A stretch of 64,000 nucleotides of DNA from Xenorhabdus bovienii. Lineage in GTDB: Bacteria; Pseudomonadota; Gammaproteobacteria; Enterobacterales; Enterobacteriaceae. The stretch lies in contig NZ_JANAIF010000019.1 of NCBI RefSeq assembly GCF_024721015.1, positions 1 to 64,000 on the forward strand, read 5' to 3'. Within the stretch, counting starts at the first letter, position 1; each line of letters starts with the position of its first letter. This document shows, piece by piece, positions 37,993-38,640 of this stretch. The position numbers and the translations under genes are program-made. Under the pieces are notes generated by a model, which worked only from the letters and a program-made list of their open reading frames with translations, ran no database searches and had not been told where the DNA came from.

Positions 37993-38001
37993 AATTCTGA
38001 G

Positions 38002-38034
38002 AAAGCCCTGCTATTTTTGCAGGGCTTTTTCTTT
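38002..38034 (+). terminator. tRNA operon terminator
   Basis: AAAGCCCTGC (38002-38011) pairs with GCAGGGCTTT (38019-38028), followed by a T-rich tract. It ends the Arg-His-Leu-Pro tRNA transcript. Confidence 0.92.
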
Positions 38035-38226
38035 TTGTATCTCTGGGAGAGATGCTATTTCTAATCGTTATTTCCCAACTATCAAAAAGCCCTTCATTTC
38101 TTTTTGTCATTTCCCACTTGTAGCTTGAAATCTATTATTTTTGCACTTTTATAGGTGTTATAACTATTTGTTTTTAAATGTCTTTTATGTATGGTGTTGT
38201 ATTTCCGCGACAAACATACTATTGAA

Positions 38227-38244
38227 TGTCTCGGTTTGGAGACA
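38227..38244. promoter_or_regulatory. GlrR-type activator site 1
   Basis: An exact TGTC-N10-GACA dyad, the consensus reported for GlrR sites at glmY/glmZ promoters. It lies about 200 bases upstream of the glmZ start, a usual distance for a sigma54 enhancer. Confidence 0.75.
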
Positions 38245-38290
38245 TTTAACTCATTGATTATTATCTTCTATATGTAAACAGCTGAAAGGG

Positions 38291-38308
38291 CGTCTCAAAT
38301 GAGAGACG
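38291..38308. promoter_or_regulatory. GlrR-type activator site 2 (variant)
   Basis: CGTC-N10-GACG, a dyad with the same spacing whose outer bases are changed together so the symmetry is kept. The arms extend to CGTCTC/GAGACG. Confidence 0.55.
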
Positions 38309-38348
38309 GTATTGTTCGATTATTCTTAGTGAGAAGTCGAATGCCTGT

Positions 38349-38366
38349 TGTCGGGTATCTGATACA
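38349..38366. promoter_or_regulatory. GlrR-type activator site 3
   Basis: TGTC-N10-TACA, one base from the TGTC-N10-GACA consensus, about 80 bases upstream of the predicted glmZ start. Confidence 0.55.
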
Positions 38367-38402
38367 TCTTGAGTAAGAGAGAATTAACCTGATGACTAAA
38401 AG

Positions 38403-38419
38403 TTGGCACGAAACGTGCT
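38403..38419 (+). promoter_or_regulatory. sigma54 promoter of glmZ
   Basis: TTGGCACGAAACGTGCT fits the sigma54 consensus: GG at 38405-38406 and GC at 38417-38418, ten bases apart, with one mismatch in the -12 element. The -12 position puts the start at 38430-38431, where the GlmZ sequence begins. A TATAAA at 38420-38425 could serve a weak overlapping sigma70 promoter. Confidence 0.85.
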
Positions 38420-38430
38420 TATAAAGAATT

Positions 38431-38640
38431 GTAGATACTCATCCCACTCCTTATGACAGCACAGACTTCATAAACCTCGGGATGATGTAGAGCTGATTAT
38501 CAGTGCCTATGGTCCACGTTATAGATGAATAAGCATTTAGTCTTTTCATCACCAACCGGACACAACGTTGAGTGAGGCACTATCCGTCTGTAGACCTGAT
38601 TGTATTTATACACCTGTCTTTTTTGATAGGTGTTTTTTTT
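38431..38640 (+). ncRNA. glmZ: Small RNA GlmZ
   Basis: About 210 nt, close to the 207-nt E. coli primary transcript. The 5' end GTAGATACTCATCCCACTCC and the glmS-pairing segment GGACACAACGTTGAGTGAGGC (near 38557-38577) closely match E. coli GlmZ, while the middle has diverged. It ends in its own terminator. GlmZ activates glmS mRNA translation with Hfq, is cut by RNase E guided by RapZ, and is protected by GlmY when glucosamine-6-P is low. It sits upstream of hemY (convergent), as in E. coli, although aslA and aslB are absent. Confidence 0.92.
38610..38640 (+). terminator. glmZ terminator
   Basis: ACACCTGTC (38610-38618) pairs with GATAGGTGT (38625-38633) with one wobble, followed by seven T. 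Confidence 0.9.

Follow-up and report, generated by a model that had tools for sequence, protein, structure and literature searches.

Sequence evidence for a probable sigma54-dependent, GlrR- and IHF-assisted glmZ promoter in Xenorhabdus

By which type of promoter is the small RNA GlmZ transcribed in Xenorhabdus? A sequence-only reading of the locus had stated that E. coli glmZ uses sigma70 and that some other enterics use sigma54 with GlrR. The available text of PMC4585118 agrees on both counts, describing a single sigma70 promoter for E. coli glmZ and, in Yersinia pseudotuberculosis, sigma54 promoters for both small RNAs, GlmY and GlmZ, with GlrR upstream and putative IHF sites. As described in the accessible parts of the respective papers, E. 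coli glmY has three TGTN12ACA sites to which GlrR binds, with IHF (PMC6075780), glmY of Proteus mirabilis combines three putative sites with two IHF sites and an overlapping promoter (PMC8745638), and expressed RNAs homologous to glmY and glmZ were reported in Photorhabdus asymbiotica (PMC4683029). In the literature on GlmZ and Xenorhabdus, as far as its accessible text extends, we found no treatment of glmZ control in this genus. We analysed the glmZ locus of X. bovienii in a window of 64,000 nucleotides (NZ_JANAIF010000019.1, positions 1 to 64,000) and compared it with related genomes. The glmZ promoter is very probably, on the sequence features described below, of the common enterobacterial form that depends on sigma54 and is assisted by GlrR and IHF. 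The case would thus be an ordinary one, sigma54–GlrR control of glmZ having already been described for Yersinia and Salmonella.

The GlmZ small RNA was located by a covariance-model match to RF00083, with a score of 143.6 bits against a gathering score of 60, and its first bases, GTAGAT, line up with the 5' end that is annotated for glmZ in E. coli K-12. The gene is flanked on one side by a tRNA cluster and on the other by a hemY-type gene on the opposite strand. The latter was named from its relatives, the nearest named ones being Xenorhabdus proteins of 80–89% identity, with a MAG at 86% among them. A terminator-like stem that ends the tRNA cluster is likely to separate glmZ from tRNA transcription. 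The features of the locus are collected in Table 1.

Table 1. Features at the glmZ locus (positions in the window)
Feature	Position	Strand	Sequence	Description
Intrinsic-terminator-like stem	37999–38031	+		Ends the tRNA cluster; terminator scan
GlrR-type site A	38195–38212		TGTTGTATTTCCGCGACA	Distal site; 1 mismatch to TGTC-N10-GACA
GlrR-type site B	38227–38244		TGTCTCGGTTTGGAGACA	Exact TGTC-N10-GACA
IHF-type word	38247–38259	−	TAACTCATTGATT	Exact match to YAANNNNTTGATW; between B and C
GlrR-type site C	38291–38308		CGTCTCAAATGAGAGACG	CGTC-N10-GACG; 2 mismatches, symmetric
Sigma54 −24/−12 element	38404–38419	+	TGGCACGAAACGTGCT	GG 38405–38406, N10, GC 38417–38418
Possible weak overlapping sigma70 −10	38420–38425	+	TATAAA	5/6 of consensus
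GlmZ small RNA	38431–38639	+		RF00083
GlmZ terminator stem	38610–38633			T run after the stem

An exact GG-N10-GC element with its predicted start at the 5' end of GlmZ had been proposed for this locus, and the proposal held up. The sequence TGGCACGAAACGTGCT differs by one base from TGGCACGN4TTGCW and is the sole match at this level in the window. Since about 0.95 matches with at most one mismatch are expected by chance per 64 kb, the weight given to this element rests on its position and not on the motif alone. Its TGG lies approximately 27 bases, and its end approximately 12 bp, before the 5' end of GlmZ, and the distance from the GG-N10-GC core to the 5' end is within 1–2 bases of that at most other GlmZ loci.

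Upstream of this element, three sites of the TGTC-N10-GACA (TGTN12ACA) type are present, of which site C does not follow TGTN12ACA letter for letter. Sites A and B are 32 bp apart and sites B and C 64 bp apart (about three and six turns), instead of the spacing of about 60 bases throughout that had been described. Only one triple in the 64 kb, starting at 38195, 38227 and 38291, fits these spacings with at most two mismatches per site. The window as a whole is not enriched in single dyads with at most one mismatch (15 found, 22.6 expected by chance); the significance of the three dyads lies in their fixed spacing and their conservation. The latter was assessed in an alignment of 16 Xenorhabdus-clade loci, taken from the genome of the window, a second genome of the same genus, 13 named Xenorhabdus genomes and a MAG placed among Xenorhabdus in the HemY tree. 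Sites A, B and C form conserved blocks in this alignment, the 15 other loci keeping 5–7, 7–8 and 6–7 of the eight motif letters, respectively. The B–C pair is kept in all 16 loci, and site A is found within two mismatches in 15 of them. Of the three dyads listed in the sequence-only reading, those at 38227 and 38291 are thus conserved, the one at 38349 is not, and site A had been missed.

The form CGTC-N10-GACG of site C is found in 13 of the 16 Xenorhabdus-clade loci and in 4 of 72 glmZ loci with a B–C pair, among which TGTC-N10-GACA is the commonest form (43 loci). The changes on both arms of this dyad, noticed earlier as compensating, amount to a symmetric change of a DNA dyad and are common to 13 of the 16 loci. 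The affinity of site C for GlrR may be low, because the site differs from TGTN12ACA at both outer bases. Directly after it, the hexamer GGTATT or a near form (the site and the hexamer together spanning 38291–38314) is kept in the Xenorhabdus-clade loci.

A putative IHF site upstream of the glmZ promoter is present as an exact consensus word. It was identified with WATCAANNNNTTR (complement YAANNNNTTGATW), which we take to be the IHF consensus. Words of this degenerate consensus with at most one mismatch were found 20 bp after the start of site B in 16/16 Xenorhabdus-clade loci, 52/72 paired glmZ loci and 57/65 paired glmY loci. When any position between B and C was allowed, 54 of the 72 glmZ loci contained an IHF-type word, compared with 10 on average when a slightly shorter stretch was shuffled. 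A promoter-proximal IHF-type word, common at glmY, was not found when the glmZ of the window was scanned for it.

The wider comparison was based on 149 searched genomes, 90 of which gave any match; 82 of these provided the glmZ loci, mostly one per genus and including two from Xenorhabdus (G000 and G012), and the other eight, with a single weak match each, were not counted as glmZ. GlmZ and GlmY were assigned by score and start sequence, and not by neighbourhood in every case. GlrR-type sites with at most one mismatch numbered 188 upstream of the 82 glmZ genes and 185 upstream of 67 glmY genes, against means of 8.5 and 6.9, respectively, in mononucleotide shuffles, which preserve base composition only. 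Six scrambled control dyads gave between 2 and 28 matches at glmZ and between 1 and 43 at glmY. The spacings of site pairs upstream of glmZ genes peak at 32, 63 and 95 bp. With 62–65 bp allowed, 72 of the 82 glmZ loci have a B–C pair, 61 of them with a spacing of 63 bp and 11 with one of 64 bp; at one of the ten loci without it (L087) the upstream DNA ends at 238 bp. Site A accompanies the pair at 54 of the 72 loci, and its distance from B is 32 bp in 41 of these 54. At glmY, the pair is present in 65 of 67 loci, with a spacing of 63 bp in 63 of them.

The distance from the start of site C to the TGG of the promoter varied at glmZ from 69 to 235 bp over the 72 loci, and from 108 to 204 bp within the Xenorhabdus clade. 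Helical phasing between site C and the promoter gave R values of 0.12 at 10.5 bp, 0.06 at 10.0 bp and 0.26 at 11.0 bp for glmZ (n=72), and of 0.52 at 10.5 bp and 0.65 at 10.0 bp for glmY (n=65); these values are not independent tests, because the loci are related. GlrR, IHF and the three dyads, in the arrangement A-32-B-63/64-C with the IHF-type word fixed at 20 bp into the module from where B begins, may form a rigid nucleoprotein unit at both glmY and glmZ, its distance to the glmZ promoter being free, GlrR acting as one preformed higher-order complex and not at three separate sites; we consider the chances of this proposal to be evenly balanced. In Xenorhabdus innexi, the spacer that separates site C from the glmZ promoter holds a tandemly repeated 9-base unit (CATCATCGC-like), which lengthens the stretch from C to the TGG to approximately 204 bp, compared with approximately 111 bp in most Xenorhabdus, with the A–B–C spacing unchanged.

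The second RF00083 match of the genome (contig C299, 35603–35794) is followed by genes for a kinase, QseG and GlrR, and was identified as glmY. It carries the same A–B–IHF–C module as glmZ. Three exact TGTC-N10-GACA sites (positions 1257–1369 of locus L002) and an extra promoter-proximal IHF-type word (position 1445) were observed there, so that the control elements of glmY are nearer to the consensus than those of glmZ. GlrR and QseG were recognized with scores of 936 and 305 bits against NCBIfam cut-offs of 763 and 234, respectively, and the kinase of the cluster from its HisKA and HATPase domains and its position, not from a GlrK-specific model. The genome also encodes RpoN, RapZ and four proteins of the HU/IHF family, which were not told apart. 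The genes for GlrR, QseG and the kinase beside glmY, and that for RpoN, are all present. The earlier impression that glmZ control looks like the sigma54 form is well supported at the level of sequence by the −24/−12 element, the GlrR-type sites, the IHF-type word, GlrR, RpoN and the module at glmY.

When the whole genome was searched for B–C pairs of 63 or 64 bp with at most two mismatches, one pair was found at 63 bp, at glmY, and one at 64 bp, at glmZ. With up to three mismatches, the 64-bp pair gave 13 matches, fewer than the 27 of the reversed control, and such weaker pairs are therefore indistinguishable from chance. A wider GlrR regulon was not obtained: single dyads, of which there are 38 in the genome and 74 for the reversed control pattern, were uninformative, and the paired pattern (at most two mismatches, 63 or 64 bp) led to glmY and glmZ alone. 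The strict spacing offers a simple means of recognizing GlrR targets, and in this genome it points to these two genes.

The sequence shows the elements, how they are spaced and conserved, and that the genome encodes the proteins. A mechanism can be proposed in which binding by GlrR, activation, bending by IHF and the consequences for glmS are modelled on studies of E. coli, Salmonella and Yersinia. Phosphorylated GlrR (QseF) would bind dyads A, B and C, which lie between about 240 and 120 bp before the start, and IHF would bend the DNA between B and C, helping GlrR to reach the RNA polymerase–sigma54 complex at the −24/−12 element. ATP hydrolysis by GlrR would then open the promoter, and GlmZ would be made from about 38431. 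Because glmY shares the A–B–IHF–C module, GlrK/GlrR would raise both small RNAs together, and GlmZ would be both protected by GlmY against RapZ-guided decay and newly made.

Fully overlapping sigma54 and sigma70 promoters are described for Salmonella glmZ in the available text of PMC3844500. Dual control of this kind, with a real sigma54 promoter and an overlapping sigma70 promoter at TATAAA supplying much of the transcription, appears unlikely in Xenorhabdus. The hexamer agrees with the sigma70 −10 consensus at five of six positions, and L038, L044 and L047, three of the other 15 Xenorhabdus-clade loci, have a different 5-of-6 hexamer near its place. However, TATAAA itself is not kept in those 15 loci, the best −35 sequence at 16–18 bp, CTAAAA, matches at three of six positions, an extended −10 is lacking, and a sigma70 scan reported no promoter at the GlmZ start. 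An extended TGCAATAAT is found at the place of TATAAA in many loci of the wider set. Low sigma70 activity at glmZ is conceivable alongside the sigma54 promoter.

Two other readings concern the dyads themselves. Were the set at 38227, 38291 and 38349 the working one, the dyad TGTCGGGTATCTGATACA (38349–38366, TGTC-N10-TACA) would have to be a lineage-specific GlrR site; it has only one mismatch, but 0–5 of its eight letters are kept in the 15 other Xenorhabdus-clade loci, and no pair of sites with at most one mismatch at the 82 glmZ loci shows its 58-bp spacing from C. Site A, in contrast, is both conserved and at the usual 32 bp. We regard this reading as highly improbable, and the dyad was rejected; on these comparisons it looks like a chance match outside the system. 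Slightly less probable still is that the dyads act as transcription terminators or form other hairpins instead of binding a protein. A terminator scan did list the dyad at 38291–38308 as terminator-like, yet the tRNA cluster already closes with a longer stem of this type, and the dyads recur with unchanged spacing upstream of glmY and glmZ across many genera. The reading of A, B and C as GlrR sites is preferred, and this corrected site map serves anyone testing glmZ control in Xenorhabdus.

A sigma54 core (at most three mismatches) was found at 73 of the 82 glmZ loci, the exceptions being L003, L007, L010, L017, L019, L021, L023, L024 and L081. In the same scan, no sigma54 core was found in the 320 bp upstream of E. 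coli K-12 glmZ, which is known to use sigma70, and no GlrR-type site with two mismatches or fewer. A HemY tree was built from 99 of 109 rows, the 10 left out including the core-less L017, L021 and L024. In it, the eight rows without a core all fall within one 17-row clade that includes E. coli K-12, and five changes are counted. This quickly built tree has an arbitrary root, and 36 of its 94 inner branches are open, so that loss rather than gain of the sigma54 form is not proven by the tree alone. Judged from these loci, sigma54–GlrR control of glmZ appears to be the common state among the sampled relatives, and its wide spread makes E. coli the exception. The abstract of Goepel et al. (2011) reportedly states both this exception and three conserved GlrR sites.

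The Xenorhabdus glmZ locus shares with glmY and glmZ of Y. pseudotuberculosis, as far as the accessible account goes, sigma54 promoters, upstream GlrR sites, putative IHF sites and, by prediction, the placing of both genes under GlrK/GlrR; it differs in genus and in having CGTC-N10-GACG as its promoter-proximal conserved site. The B–C spacing, 64 bp, also differs from the commoner 63 bp. Salmonella glmZ has a −24/−12 element of the same kind (TGGCACGTTATGTGC in a table within the available part of PMC3844500), whereas a good overlapping sigma70 promoter was not seen at Xenorhabdus glmZ. Three GlrR/QseF sites, sigma54 and IHF are likewise features of P. mirabilis glmY in the accessible text of PMC8745638, but the present gene is glmZ, at which a single IHF-type word was found, located between B and C. 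The glmZ gene of E. coli K-12 encodes the same small RNA next to hemY; unlike it, the Xenorhabdus gene has a sigma54 core and GlrR-type sites.

Finally, GlmZ was compared with the leader of glmS (L215), and a perfect match of 10 bases (ACCTGATTGT/ACAATCAGGT) was found about 60 bases before the glmS ATG. The energy of the GlmZ–glmS duplex was reached by 22 of 300 shuffled leaders for the 3' part of GlmZ and by 173 of 300 for the whole RNA. The ACCTGATTGT match is a predicted target site of the kind expected for GlmZ.
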